The translations under genes and the position numbers were made by a program. The notes beneath the pieces were generated by a model. The model made no database searches. It saw nothing but the letters and a program-made list of their open reading frames with translations, and was not told where the DNA came from. Below, in pieces: positions 23,338-28,296 of a stretch of 64,000 nt of DNA. Within the stretch, counting starts at the first letter, position 1. Each line of letters opens with the position of its first letter. The DNA comes from Halorussus gelatinilyticus (lineage in GTDB: Archaea > Halobacteriota > Halobacteria > Halobacteriales > Haladaptataceae). The DNA lies in assembly GCF_023238445.1 (NCBI RefSeq), contig NZ_CP096658.1, positions 2,666,001 to 2,730,000 of the forward strand, written 5' to 3'.

Positions 23338-25329
23338 TCAGTCCCCGCCGACCTTCCGCTGGATGTCCTCGACGACGTCCGGGTTTCGGAGCGTGCTTGT
23401 GTTGCCCAACTCCTCGCCGTTGGCGATGTCCTCCAGCAGGCGTCGCATTATCTTGCCCGAGCGCGTCTTCGGGAGTTCGGGCGTGAAGACGACCTGTTCG
23501 GGCCGAGCGATGGGACCGATTGCGTCCTCGACGCCCTCCTCGATGCGCGAGCGCATCTCGTCGTCCTCGTCGTAGCCGTCTTCGGTGATGACGTAGGCGT
23601 AGACCGCTTCGCCCTTCACGTCGTGTTTACCGCCGACGACCGCGGCCTCCGCGACGCCCTCGACGCCGACGATTGCGCTCTCGATCTCCATCGTGCCGAG
23701 GCGGTGGCCCGAGACGTTGAGTACGTCGTCCACGCGCCCGAGGACGGTGATGTACCCGTCGTCGTCTATCTTCGCGCCGTCCTCGGGGAAGTACACCCAA
23801 TCGTCCATGTCGTCGGACTGGGTGTCGGAGTACTCCGCCCAGTACTCCTCGATGTAGCGCTCGTCGTTCTGGTACAGCGTCCGGAGCATCCCCGGCCACG
23901 GCTTCTGGACGGTCAGATAGCCCGCCTCGCCGGGGGCGACCTCGTCGCCGTTGGGGTCCACGACCTGCGCGTCCACGCCCGGCAGGGGCGGTCCCGCAGA
24001 GCCGGGTTTCATCGTCTTGACGCCGGGCAGGGTCGTGACCATCATCCCGCCGGTCTCGGTCTGCCACCACGTGTCCACGATGGGGCAGGACTCGTCGCCG
24101 ACGTGCTTGTAGTACCACTTCCACGCCTTCGGGTTGATGGGTTCGCCGACCGTCCCGAGCAAGCGCAGCGAGGAGAGGTCGTGCTGCTCGGGGTACTGGC
24201 TACCCCACTTCATGAACGCCCGAATCGCGGTCGGCGCGGTGTAGAGTTGCGTCGTCTCGTACTCCTCGATTATCTCCCACAAGCGGTCGCGCTCGGGGTG
24301 GTCGGGCGTGCCCTCGTACATCATCGTCGTCGTGCCCAAGGCCAGCGGGCCGTAGACGATGTAGGAGTGGCCGGTGATCCAGCCGATGTCCGCCGAGCAG
24401 AAGTAGGTGTCCTCGGGTTTGACGTCCAGTACCGCCTGCGAAGTCCACGCGGTCCACGCGAGGTAGCCCCCGGTCGTGTGCTTGACGCCCTTCGGTTGAC
24501 CGGTCGTGCCGGAGGTGTACATCAGGAACAGCATGTCCTCGGCGTCGCGCGAGACCGGTTCGACCTCCGCGCCCGACTGTTCGTCCACGAGGTCCCGATA
24601 GTAGCGTTCGTTCGACTCCAAGTCGTGGCCGTGGCCGTGTTCGCCGAGTCGGTCCACGACCACCACGTCCGACACGTCGTGGCCCACGTCGCCCAGTCCT
24701 TCGCGGGTCTTCTCGTAGTGGTCGAGGGGGTCGCCGCGCCGATAGTAGCCGTTCGCGGTGACCAGATACTCGGAGTCGGCCGACTCCATCCGGGTCGCCA
24801 GCGCCTCCGCGGAGAAGCCGGCGAAGACGACCGAGTGGGGTGCGCCGATGCGCGCGCAGGCCAGCATGGCGATGGGTAACTCCGGAATCATCGGCATGTA
24901 CATCGTTACCACGTCGTCCTCGCCGACGCCCAACTCCTTCAGCGCGGCCGCGAACTCGTTGACCTCGCGGTGCAACTCCTCGTAGGTGTACGTTCGATTC
25001 TCCTCGTCGGTGGGTTCGCCGACCCACTCGATGGCGGCCTCGTCACCGCGCTCGTCCAGATGTCGGTCCAGACAGTTCGCCGAGGCGTTGAGCTTCCCGC
25101 CGGTGAACCACTCGTAGAACGGCGGGTTCGAGGCGTCCAGCACCTCGTCGTACGACTCGTCCCAGTCCAAGAGTTCGGCCGCCCGCTCCCAGCACTCGGG
25201 CCAGTCTTCCTCGAACTCGTCGTAGATGGAATCGTCGGAGACGTTCGCCTGCGATACGAACTCCGCTGGCGGCTCGAACTCGTCTTGCTCTTCGAGCCGT
25301 GCTTCGAGTTCGGCGGTATCTTCGGACAT
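23338..25329 (-). CDS. acs: Acetyl-CoA synthetase (AMP-forming)
   Basis: 663-residue enzyme activating acetate with ATP and CoA to acetyl-CoA in the cytosol. Motifs: AEP block YTSGTTGQPKGVKH (ATP phosphates), VDTWWQTETGG (acyl pocket with the Trp pair typical of acetate specificity), YFPEDGAKIDDDGYITVLGR (ATP ribose) and the C-terminal PKTRSGKIMRR lysine that is acetylated in bacteria. The ATG at 25329 is chosen over a GTG at 25350 because the TATA box CTTTATT (25361-25367, minus strand) would be too close to the latter. Confidence 0.95.
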   Translation of the reverse strand: MSEDTAELEARLEEQDEFEPPAEFVSQANVSDDSIYDEFEEDWPECWERAAELLDWDESYDEVLDASNPPFYEWFTGGKLNASANCLDRHLDERGDEAAIEWVGEPTDEENRTYTYEELHREVNEFAAALKELGVGEDDVVTMYMPMIPELPIAMLACARIGAPHSVVFAGFSAEALATRMESADSEYLVTANGYYRRGDPLDHYEKTREGLGDVGHDVSDVVVVDRLGEHGHGHDLESNERYYRDLVDEQSGAEVEPVSRDAEDMLFLMYTSGTTGQPKGVKHTTGGYLAWTAWTSQAVLDVKPEDTYFCSADIGWITGHSYIVYGPLALGTTTMMYEGTPDHPERDRLWEIIEEYETTQLYTAPTAIRAFMKWGSQYPEQHDLSSLRLLGTVGEPINPKAWKWYYKHVGDESCPIVDTWWQTETGGMMVTTLPGVKTMKPGSAGPPLPGVDAQVVDPNGDEVAPGEAGYLTVQKPWPGMLRTLYQNDERYIEEYWAEYSDTQSDDMDDWVYFPEDGAKIDDDGYITVLGRVDDVLNVSGHRLGTMEIESAIVGVEGVAEAAVVGGKHDVKGEAVYAYVITEDGYDEDDEMRSRIEEGVEDAIGPIARPEQVVFTPELPKTRSGKIMRRLLEDIANGEELGNTSTLRNPDVVEDIQRKVGGD

Positions 25330-25488
25330 GAGTTCAGTTCGAATACTCACTCAGGAGAGCAATAAAGGTTGCCGCGAGTTAGCACGCCAGAATCCGCGGA
25401 AAGCGCGCCTGTCCGTCGCACCGAGTCCGGAAACGCCGCGTTACACCTCTCGTTTGCGACGTGTCCGCTGTCGGATACTCCCGACTGC

Positions 25489-25707
25489 TCAGTTCAGCGC
25501 CTCGACCTCGTCGGTCAAATCCTCGGGACCGTCCACCGGTCCGTTGACGAACAGGCCGTGCGCGATGAGCAGGGCCGCCGTCACGCCAGCGATGGTGACG
25601 GCCGTCGGGAGCGCGAGCGAGGTCAACACGCCGATTCCGGCCCCCGTCGCCATCGTAGCGAAGATGGCGACCAGCACGAGGTCGTAGTATTGGACTGTGT
25701 AGTTCAC
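25489..25707 (-). CDS. Small membrane protein, function unknown
   Basis: 72-residue protein with two predicted transmembrane helices (LVLVAIFATMATGAGIGVL and a second around TIAGVTAALLIAHGLF) and an acidic C-terminal tail. The GTG at 25707 is preferred because an AT-only run (25730-25741, minus strand) lies about 30 nt upstream and would be coding in a longer version. No family was recognised. It lies downstream of the amidase on the same strand with a 93-nt gap. Confidence 0.65.
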   Translation of the reverse strand: MNYTVQYYDLVLVAIFATMATGAGIGVLTSLALPTAVTIAGVTAALLIAHGLFVNGPVDGPEDLTDEVEALN

Positions 25708-25800
25708 GAGAGAGCTTCGAGGCGCGCTCGGAAAAAAATTTGGCCGCCGACACTGCACTGCGGGTGACGTTCGGCGAACCGGTCCGCGTCGCCGGACCGC

Positions 25801-26403
25801 TCAGTACTGGTTGACGAGGTCGATGAAGTAGTCCCAGTCCCAGTTGGCACCGGGGTCGGTGTGGGTACTTTCGGGAACCTGCGAGTGAGCGATGATGCCG
25901 CCGTTGGCCGGATTCGCAGCGTCGTAGGGGACGCTGCCGGGATGCTGTTTCGGAACGCCGTACTGCTCGCAGAGGTACGCACAGAGGTCCGCGGACTTGC
26001 GGTACTGGGCGTCCTCGTAGGTCTCGCTGACGTAGCCGCCGTGTTCGATGCCGATCGAGTAGTCGTTGTAGTTCGACCCGCCCGCGTGCCAGCCGATGTT
26101 CATGTCGGCGAGGCTCTGGTACAGGTAACCGCTCTCGGCGACGGTGTAGTGGGCGCTCACGTTGGCGTCGGGGTCCTGGAACCAGTTGACCGCGCTGCTG
26201 GCCGACCCCTGCACGGTGTGGATGACGATCCAGTCGATCTTACCAGCGCCGCGGTCGGCGGCGGTGTAGTTGCTGGAGTGGGCTGCTTCCCAGTCGACTC
26301 CGGGCTTGGCAGCCGCCGCGGTTCCCGAGAGGGCCGCGGTACCGGTGAGACCGACAGTACTTGCTGCGCCGAGCTTCTTCAGGAAGTTTCTTCTCGAACT
26401 CAT
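25801..26403 (-). CDS. Tat-exported N-acetylmuramoyl-L-alanine amidase family protein
   Basis: 200-residue Amidase_2 (PGRP-fold) protein. Residues 1-33 are a Tat signal (SRRNFLKK, hydrophobic stretch, AAAA cleavage region) with no lipobox Cys, so it should be released outside the cell. Likely zinc ligands are H62 (VIHTVQG), H173 (IAHSQVP) and D183 (HTDPG), the usual His-His-Asp/Cys set; the DPG...WDWDYF end is typical. The family cuts the muramyl-peptide bond of peptidoglycan, which haloarchaea lack, so its target may be bacterial walls; that is inference. The promoter region is AT-rich with a perfect inverted repeat. Confidence 0.83.
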   Translation of the reverse strand: MSSRRNFLKKLGAASTVGLTGTAALSGTAAAAKPGVDWEAAHSSNYTAADRGAGKIDWIVIHTVQGSASSAVNWFQDPDANVSAHYTVAESGYLYQSLADMNIGWHAGGSNYNDYSIGIEHGGYVSETYEDAQYRKSADLCAYLCEQYGVPKQHPGSVPYDAANPANGGIIAHSQVPESTHTDPGANWDWDYFIDLVNQY

Positions 26404-26415
26404 GCGAATGAATAC

Positions 26416-26440
26416 ATTAATCACGGAGATTAATATAATT
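26416..26440 (-). promoter_or_regulatory. Amidase promoter with a perfect inverted repeat
   Basis: The arms ATTAATC (26416-26422) and GATTAAT (26428-26434) are separated by 5 nt. The right arm runs into the AT-only TATA region (26431-26440), which lies about 30 nt upstream of the amidase ATG. A dimeric regulator bound here would cover the TATA box and start site. Confidence 0.5.
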
Positions 26441-26494
26441 TCTCATACAGTTTTACACTAGTAAACAAGTCTGAAAGCAACGATTCGGCCGATT

Positions 26495-28195
26495 TTATGC
26501 GACGTTGACAGTTTCCTGATACGACCCGTACTCGGCCTCGAACACCTGCATGATTTCGCCCATCGTGGCGTAGGCTTTCACCGCGTCGACGATGGCGGGC
26601 ATGACGTTCTCGTCGTTCTGGATGGCGTCGTCGATGGCTTCGAGCGCGGCCTCGACCGCCTCGTCGTCGCGTTCGTCCTTGACTTCGGCGAGTCGGTCGA
26701 GTTGCCGCTGTTGGGTCTCCTCGTCCACCTTGAGGATGTCGGGTCGGGTGTCCTCCTCTATCTCGTACTTGTTGACGCCGACGACCGTCTCCTCGCCCTC
26801 CTCGACGCGCTCCTGGTACTCGTAGGAGGCGTCCTGAATCTCGCGGTGGAAGTAGCCCTGTTCGATGCCCGCCAGCACGCCGTCGCGGACCGACCCGTCG
26901 CCCATCTCCTTTATCTCCTCGATGTAGGCCATCGCCTTCTCCTCGGTTTCGTCGGTCAGGCTCTCGACTGCGAACGAACCGCCGAGCGGGTCGGCGATGT
27001 CGGCCGCGCCCGACTCGTCGGCGATGATCTGCTGGGTCCGGAGCGCGACCCGGACCGCCTTCTCTGAGGGGAGCGCGAGCGCCTCGTCGAAGCTGTTGGT
27101 GTGGAGGCTCTGGGTCCCGCCCAGCACGCCGGCGAGCGCCTGAATCGTCACCCGGACCACGTTGTTCAGTGGCTGTTGGGCGGTCAGGCTCTGGCCCGCG
27201 GTCTGGGTGTGGAACTTGAGCTGCTTGCTGGCGTCCTTCTCGGCACCGTACCACTCGTCCATGACGTTCGCGTAGATGCGCCGAGCGGCGCGGAACTTGG
27301 CGACTTCCTCGAAGATGGAGTTGTGGGAGTTGAAGAAGAACGAGAGTTGGGGCGCGAAGTCGTCCACCTCCATCCCGCGGTCGAGACAGTCCTCGACGTA
27401 GGCGAACCCGTCGGCCAGCGTGAACGCGAGTTCCTGAATCGCGGTCGAACCCGCCTCGCGGATGTGGTAGCCCGAGATGGAGACCGGCTTGATTTTGGGC
27501 GTCTCCTCGACCGCGAACTCGATGGTGTCGGTCACGATGTCCAGCGACGGTTCGGGCGGGATGACCCACTCCTTCTGTGCGATGAACTCCTTGAGCATGT
27601 CGTTCTGGAGCGTTCCGCGAATCTCCTCGCGCTGGACGCCCTGCTGGTCGGCCAGCGCGATGTACATCGCGTAGATGACCGGCGCGGAGGGGTTGATGGT
27701 GAAGGAGGTCGAGACCTCGGCGAGGTCGATGCCGTCGAAGAGAATCTCCATGTCTCGGAGGGTGTCCACCGCGACGCCCTCCTTGCCGACCTCGCCGTCC
27801 GAGAGCGGGTCGTCCGAATCCTTGCCCATCAGCGACGGCATGTCGAAGGCGGTCGAGAGACCGGTCTGGCCCTCGTCGATGAGGTAGTGGAACCGCTCGT
27901 TGGTCTCTTCCGCGGTGCCGAATCCGGCGAACTGGCGCATCGTCCACGTCCGGCCGCGGTACATCGTCGGGTACGGGCCGCGGGTGTAGGGTTCCTCGCC
28001 GGGGAAGCCCAGGTCCTCCTCGTAGTCGAGGTCCGCCACGTCGTCGGGGGTGTAGAGTCGGTCCACTTCGAGGTTCGACACGGTGGCGAATCGGTCCTTG
28101 CGCTCCCCGTAGGCGTCGAGTACGGGGTCCAAGGTCTCGTCTTCCCACTCGTCTTTCGCGTCGCGTATCTCCGCGAGGTCGTCCTCGTCGTACAT
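26495..28195 (-). CDS. Methylmalonyl-CoA mutase, large (catalytic barrel) subunit
   Basis: 566-residue substrate-binding barrel that, with a separate B12-binding subunit, interconverts (R)-methylmalonyl-CoA and succinyl-CoA. Landmarks: GPYPTMYRGRTWTMRQFAGF, TAFDMPSLMG, ISGYHIREAGSTAIQE and HTQTAGQSLTAQQPLNN. There is no C-terminal DxHxxG cobalamin motif, so the B12 domain is encoded elsewhere. The ATG at 28195 has CATTATCC about 28 nt upstream. The frame stays open beyond it to 28831, but that stretch runs antisense into the ABC permease gene and is not coding. It serves propionyl-CoA metabolism. Confidence 0.92.
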   Translation of the reverse strand: MYDEDDLAEIRDAKDEWEDETLDPVLDAYGERKDRFATVSNLEVDRLYTPDDVADLDYEEDLGFPGEEPYTRGPYPTMYRGRTWTMRQFAGFGTAEETNERFHYLIDEGQTGLSTAFDMPSLMGKDSDDPLSDGEVGKEGVAVDTLRDMEILFDGIDLAEVSTSFTINPSAPVIYAMYIALADQQGVQREEIRGTLQNDMLKEFIAQKEWVIPPEPSLDIVTDTIEFAVEETPKIKPVSISGYHIREAGSTAIQELAFTLADGFAYVEDCLDRGMEVDDFAPQLSFFFNSHNSIFEEVAKFRAARRIYANVMDEWYGAEKDASKQLKFHTQTAGQSLTAQQPLNNVVRVTIQALAGVLGGTQSLHTNSFDEALALPSEKAVRVALRTQQIIADESGAADIADPLGGSFAVESLTDETEEKAMAYIEEIKEMGDGSVRDGVLAGIEQGYFHREIQDASYEYQERVEEGEETVVGVNKYEIEEDTRPDILKVDEETQQRQLDRLAEVKDERDDEAVEAALEAIDDAIQNDENVMPAIVDAVKAYATMGEIMQVFEAEYGSYQETVNVA

Positions 28196-28296
28196 AGTTG
28201 CAATAATTGCTCGAAGGATAATGAATCTGCGTACATCTGCGTCCGGAACGGGCGACCGCGACCCGACAGGGAAAGGAAGCAGCGAAAGACGAACGG

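Follow-up and report, generated by a model that had tools for sequence, protein, structure and literature searches.

What use is a peptidoglycan amidase to an organism that has no murein of its own? The question is raised by a gene on the minus strand of the window analysed here, a stretch of 64,000 nucleotides covering positions 2666001-2730000 of a one-contig, 3.67-Mb Halorussus chromosome (G000 in our set of relatives). Matches of 79-80% to plasmids of H. limi, H. vallis and H. aquaticus agree with this genus. The original prediction had taken its product for a secreted, peptidoglycan-amidase-like enzyme that may attack bacterial competitors or recycle muropeptides. The explanation that best accommodates our results, an exported amidase of actinobacterial origin that would digest bacterial walls for nutrition, is one that we hold, taken as a whole, to be a little better than evenly probable.

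The gene, its export signal and its active site

The features of the gene and of its upstream region are the following.

25801..26403, minus strand: Amidase_2 gene, 200 aa, N-acetylmuramoyl-L-alanine amidase-like (open reading frame, Pfam profile, predicted fold)
26308..26403, minus strand: Tat signal peptide, residues 1-32, with an SRRNFLKK motif, an A-rich end and no lipobox Cys (TIGR01409 and sequence; exact cleavage point putative)
25804..26307, minus strand: mature single Amidase_2 domain, residues 33-200 (profile match and model)
26218..26220, minus strand: codon of zinc ligand H62, equivalent to AmiE H60 (residue alignment, PMC2837410)
26044..26046, minus strand: codon of catalytic E120, the proton shuttle (residue alignment, AmiE comparison)
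25885..25887, minus strand: codon of zinc ligand H173 (residue alignment, AmiE comparison)
25861..25863, minus strand: codon of H181, the transition-state residue, Lys in AmpD and His177 in AmiE (residue alignment)
25855..25857, minus strand: codon of zinc ligand D183 (residue alignment, AmiE comparison)
26431..26438, minus strand: TATA-like element TTATATTA, ~31 nt upstream of the amidase ATG (sequence comparison; putative promoter)

The reading frame runs from an ATG at 26403 to a stop at 25801 on the minus strand, a strand that the original prediction had not given, and an alternative, GTG-extended frame begins at 26424. It is the only Amidase_2 copy in the genome, and its dN/dS of ~0.3 against near relatives indicates purifying selection. 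The match to Pfam Amidase_2 (PF01510) is strong (1.1e-31, 110.3 bits against a cut-off of 26) and fills the whole mature part, with neither a second domain nor a cell-wall-binding domain found by profile search or in the model. The mature part is acidic (21 D+E, 5 K+R, pI 4.4), as expected at high salt. In the case of the N-terminus, the NCBIfam Tat signal model TIGR01409 scores over its threshold (19.9 against 16.7), and the first Cys of the protein is found at position 141, so there is no lipobox. The Tat signal without lipobox that had been proposed is borne out, and the protein has the features of a predicted Tat substrate.

The five residues H62/E120/H173/H181/D183 match, position by position, the active site of AmiE (H60/E119/H165/H177/D179), in which the substitutions H60A, H177A and D179A each abolish lysis in vitro (PMC2837410). 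The zinc triad H62/H173/D183 had been named beforehand with the right numbering; the remaining two residues of the site are E120 and H181. An alignment of homologues, 52 from haloarchaea and 116 from actinobacteria, shows no variation at H62, E120 or H173. Position 183 is D or C in 52/52 haloarchaeal and 115/116 actinobacterial rows (1 gap), and position 181, always H in the 116 actinobacterial rows, can be H, K, T or R in the haloarchaeal ones. An AlphaFold model of the mature part, made with phage homologues added to the alignment, reaches a pLDDT of 91.7 and a pTM of 0.89, and supersedes an earlier full-length model on a narrow alignment (pLDDT 60). Its best PDB match by Foldseek is AmpD (E 4e-12, TM 0.77), with further matches to AmiA, AmiE, phage and staphylococcal amidases, and PGRPs. 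The profile score, the His-His-Asp/Cys triad, the Glu plus Lys/His pair and the amidase/PGRP fold all place the predicted protein in Amidase_2. A peptidoglycan-amidase-like enzyme in a murein-less organism, with a complete zinc site, stands as claimed, and both the enzyme class and the export are very probably as predicted.

We propose that the gene product is a zinc N-acetylmuramoyl-L-alanine amidase with the AmpD/AmiE (Amidase_2) fold, which would be exported already folded, through the Tat pathway. Once outside, it would detach the stem peptide from bacterial peptidoglycan, or from fragments of it, by cleaving between MurNAc and L-Ala. In such a mechanism, Zn held by H62/H173/D183 would polarise the carbonyl, E120 would activate water and H181 would stabilise the transition state. 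Judged from the sequence, extracellular digestion of bacterial wall is a likely activity, and one that we propose with good confidence.

The protein was compared with several known types of enzyme. AmpD, AmiD and AmpDh2 share with it the fold, the zinc triad and the catalytic Glu, although their catalytic Lys is a His in the present amidase, and AmpD is cytoplasmic whereas the amidase is exported. A cytoplasmic AmpD-type recycling enzyme was rejected on the basis of the Tat signal and of the score against the AmpD equivalog PRK11789 (59.9 against a cut-off of 143). The AmiE domain of the Staphylococcus epidermidis autolysin has the same five active-site residues, including the His at the transition-state position, but belongs to a large, repeat-containing autolysin. 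Tat-exported single-domain Amidase_2 proteins of Streptomyces, such as WP_327341029.1 of Streptomyces sp. NBC_01324, have the same length (197 aa), a twin-arginine N-terminus, an HTDPG motif and 46% identity; they differ in lacking the 12-14 residue insert before H173, and their owners have peptidoglycan.

As for the upstream region, an element similar to the TATA-like one, CTAGAAAA-TATATTA, precedes most of the copies found at the same chromosomal site in relatives, its CTAG part being altered in the window (26431-26450, minus strand). A palindrome between the TATA-like element and the start, ATTAATC-TCCGT-GATTAAT, was considered as an operator and discarded as a chance occurrence, since it is not conserved in relatives.

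Origin of the family and the mut-acs slot

In a tree of 105 rows, all 52 haloarchaeal sequences form one clade (97/99) among actinobacterial amidases, and two phage lysins fall outside; a phylogeny had been suggested earlier as a way of distinguishing bacterial from phage affinities, and the amidase groups with the actinobacterial enzymes. Among 295 genomes drawn from the archaeal phylum, matches occurred only in the window's own order; of 297 drawn from the actinobacterial phylum, 52 matched, with up to 53-54% identity. The simplest reading is that haloarchaea probably acquired the amidase once, from an actinobacterium, a direction that rests on the nesting and on the restricted archaeal distribution, other bacterial phyla having been sampled unevenly. 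An origin from a phage endolysin or provirus was rejected in view of the chromosomal mut-acs neighbours and of the position of the phage rows, outside the archaeal and actinobacterial ones, and a close-relative scan of viral contigs found no close viral relative. Several genomes from the phylum of Actinosynnema, of ~3-3.7 Mb (G679, G709, G734, G767, G778 and G853), carry 2-7 Amidase_2 copies each, and the closest bacterial counterparts of the haloarchaeal clade (51-54%) come from some of them; this group could point to the donor.

Amidase_2 is found in 50/394 genomes of the class Halobacteria. One haloarchaeal branch is single-domain, with ~200 aa, and the 29-row clade of the amidase carries no wall-binding domain. 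Other haloarchaeal relatives are modular, bearing PG_binding_1 (L039), glucosaminidase with a weak SH3 match (L059) or, by sequence similarity, SH3-like repeats (L023). The SH3-like tail of this last paralogue is 66% identical to the tail of an M23 protein encoded in the window's genome, which indicates that wall-binding and catalytic parts have been shuffled in haloarchaea. Broken copies of the amidase or its paralogues also occur, one with a frameshift (G003:C3:92848-93448) and others, in G026, with in-frame stops (G026:C1:2514426-2515024 and 2478554-2479189).

The gene lies in a slot defined by the following neighbours.

23338..25326, minus strand: acetyl-CoA synthetase-like gene (acs), slot flank (profile match, synteny)
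26495..28210, minus strand: methylmalonyl-CoA mutase gene (mut), other slot flank (profile match, synteny)
25489..25707, minus strand: small two-helix membrane protein, conserved acs neighbour (synteny in relatives)

The Halorussus mut-acs interval (25327-26494 in the window, with equivalents in 16 other genomes) contains the amidase in 9 genomes and lacks it in 8. Its contents vary: it may be empty, hold the amidase alone, the amidase with an SH3-M23 gene, the amidase with a lipoprotein or methyltransferase-like gene, or other genes. Extra small genes occur at some of the filled and empty slots, namely the lipoprotein and the methyltransferase-like gene, as well as the SH3-M23 gene in H. vallis (G012). 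The lipoprotein-like gene, of ~280 aa with an LLAGCNSP lipobox, was seen in the slot with and without the amidase (L114 of G008, L134 of G004). The short two-helix neighbour noted in the original prediction is indeed present downstream, but the companion role suggested for it was rejected: the gene has a match in 28/28 Haladaptataceae genomes, stays by mut/acs where Halorussus genomes lack the amidase, and adjoins the amidase neither in the plasmid clusters nor in Haladaptatus.

The history of the slot differs from that of its occupant. In the tree of the mut and acs flanks, the window's genome is sister to G008 (97/95), whereas in the amidase tree it joins H. vallis (100/100), and the 105-row tree places the window copy in a plasmid-type clade, apart from the other seven copies that occupy the slot. 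In H. vallis, a dN of 0.003 separates the slot and plasmid copies over their mature parts. The amidase diverges faster than its flanks. Since the allele conflicts with the flank tree and has its affinities with plasmid copies, it has probably been exchanged at its site, likely through gene conversion or because a plasmid copy took its place.

The AnmK-NamZ-NagZ cluster and the predicted wall-degrading enzymes of this genome

The closest clade of the amidase comprises 12 rows (support 100/99), four of which lie inside an AnmK-NamZ cluster, in H. limi, H. vallis, H. aquaticus and a genome of another family (G115). On the plasmids of the first three, the amidase copy has a HAD hydrolase on one side and a serine hydrolase on the other. 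The cluster and a further wall enzyme of the window's genome are located as follows.

L100:8156-25364 (H. vallis plasmid NZ_CP100002.1): AnmK-NamZ-NagZ cluster, also found at L063, L101, L122 and L281-L293
G000:C1:3290902-3291663 (L123:7903-8664): Tat-type SH3-M23 endopeptidase, 253 aa, SH3-like plus M23, second predicted exported wall enzyme of the genome

The cluster genes encode AnmK, NamZ (DUF1343), NagZ, a serine hydrolase, HAD, SDR and GNAT proteins, a peptide-type ABC transporter, a creatininase-like protein, GH18 and IclR. AnmK and NagZ score above their NCBIfam equivalog cut-offs (442.6 against 387 and 234.6 against 207, respectively). We found the AnmK-NamZ cluster in five haloarchaeal families, with a total of at least 15 genomes. 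By Fisher tests, which ignore shared ancestry, NamZ accompanies AnmK in 15/15 genomes (p 3e-26) and Amidase_2 is found in 10/15 AnmK genomes compared with 40/379 others (p 8e-7); within Haladaptataceae, 15/15 genomes with AnmK have an Amidase_2 homologue, compared with 8/13 without it. The amidase lies inside only 4 of ~17 catabolic clusters inspected, and many amidase-bearing relatives also lack AnmK. No obvious signal peptide was seen at the start of the cluster NamZ, NagZ or serine hydrolase, so the amidase would be an exported protein among partners that are mostly cytoplasmic.

In Bacillus subtilis, the MurNAc-recycling cluster murQRP-amiE-nagZ-ybbC(namZ) groups NagZ, the amidase AmiE and YbbC (NamZ) (PMC5061867), the name and activity of NamZ being those of Muller et al. 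2021 as cited in PMC10936207. The haloarchaeal cluster around the sister copies resembles this arrangement of NagZ, NamZ and an amidase gene in a row, and differs in its AnmK, in its peptide-type ABC transporter and in the presence of Amidase_2 in only some genomes; it is missing from the window's genome. We consider the haloarchaeal cluster a probable peptidoglycan-sugar catabolic locus in archaea, and it may be more interesting than the amidase itself; the literature searched, with incomplete coverage, yielded no paper on it.

AnmK and NamZ are both absent from the one-contig genome of the window, so the window amidase, unlike its sister copies, is not part of such a cluster. Cytoplasmic MurNAc recycling as in the relatives is therefore not encoded in this assembly, and MurNAc would be unusable by that route unless the assembly misses a plasmid. 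The genome does encode the SH3-M23 endopeptidase, and in H. vallis the amidase stop codon is immediately followed, in the same orientation, by an SH3-M23 frame of 71% identity. From what is known of the two families, amidase and M23 endopeptidase together would cut stem attachment and cross-links. A second M23-like match (1654121, 29 bits) was set aside, as it has no evident export signal.

Two possible uses: feeding on bacterial walls or killing their owners

From the computed family, active site, export signal, fold, origin and gene neighbours of relatives, we infer an enzymatic activity, a substrate and a nutritional purpose. The most likely use would be the digestion of bacterial wall material, either debris or lysed neighbours, as a nutrient. 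In the case of the sister copies, the amidase products would feed a cytoplasmic set for MurNAc, GlcNAc and peptide catabolism; in the window's genome, the amidase, aided by the exported SH3-M23 protein, would release stem peptides and free glycan for other enzymes to use. We give scavenging about an even probability or slightly more, and favour it slightly over attack for the family because sister copies sit in the AnmK/NamZ/NagZ cluster. Of the two uses originally put forward, recycling is slightly preferred for the family, although its cytoplasmic MurNAc branch is not encoded here. In a more tentative vein, some haloarchaea may eat bacterial peptidoglycan by a dedicated pathway, of which the amidase would be the secreted arm, here a chromosomal orphan: exported amidase and M23 would act outside, a peptide-type ABC transporter would import the products, and NagZ, NamZ, the serine hydrolase and AnmK would process them inside.

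The principal alternative is that the amidase and the SH3-M23 protein lyse living bacterial competitors in brine, the variability of the slot and the allele replacement being the traces of an arms race. Strock et al. 2025 have already described bacteria-killing archaeal peptidoglycan hydrolases: Woldo and Danwoldo of Halogranum salarium B-1, which like the amidase are Tat-exported and of bacterial origin, kill Halalkalibacterium halodurans (PMC12352652). The patchy presence, the plasmid copies, the allele replacement and the divergence faster than the flanks would also suit a weapon, as would the PG_binding_1, SH3-like or glucosaminidase domains of modular haloarchaeal relatives. However, Woldo and Danwoldo have M23 or glucosaminidase catalytic domains together with two PG_binding_1 domains (PMC12352652), whereas the amidase and its clade have no wall-binding domain; moreover, the nearest copies sit in a catabolic cluster, and comparison of gene neighbourhoods found no immunity, toxin or secretion-apparatus genes adjoining the amidase. 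A weapon is a possibility that we take seriously and yet consider the less probable use.

It is improbable that the gene is a passenger, a horizontally spread and perhaps decaying acquisition of little benefit here. Its presence or absence at one slot, with eight empty sites, and the frameshifted and stop-bearing copies in G003 and G026 would agree with such a fate, but the window frame is intact, with its catalytic residues kept and its low dN/dS, and the TATA-like element is kept upstream of the syntenic copies. Least probable is a non-catalytic sensor or binder of muropeptides, as suggested by the fold shared with PGRPs, since non-catalytic PGRPs have lost a zinc ligand and the amidase keeps all of them along with both catalytic residues, and is soluble, predicted to be exported and devoid of a signalling domain.

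With scavenging as the slightly preferred reading, the amidase bears on a choice that Strock et al. left open for archaeal hydrolases, between killing and scavenging of environmental peptidoglycan (PMC12352652). The location of its closest relatives inside a cluster of AnmK, NamZ, NagZ and transporter genes makes scavenging a concrete and testable alternative, and archaeal wall-cutters may serve feeding besides killing. What appears to be new, from sequence comparison, is a clade of exported amidases with a single domain, a slot whose content varies and whose allele has probably been replaced, and a connection between the clade and the peptidoglycan-sugar cluster. The survey of Strock et al. 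demanded a wall-binding domain (PMC12352652). Having Amidase_2 only, the amidase does not qualify as a modular archaeal peptidoglycan hydrolase, with catalytic plus wall-binding domain, and would fall outside that filter, although it shares other traits of the type described there: a signal peptide, bacterial origin and a patchy, plasmid-associated spread (the plasmid copies being those of relatives, not the window copy). Single-domain enzymes missed in this way are common in Haladaptataceae, where 23/28 genomes have an Amidase_2 homologue and most of the best matches are single-domain.
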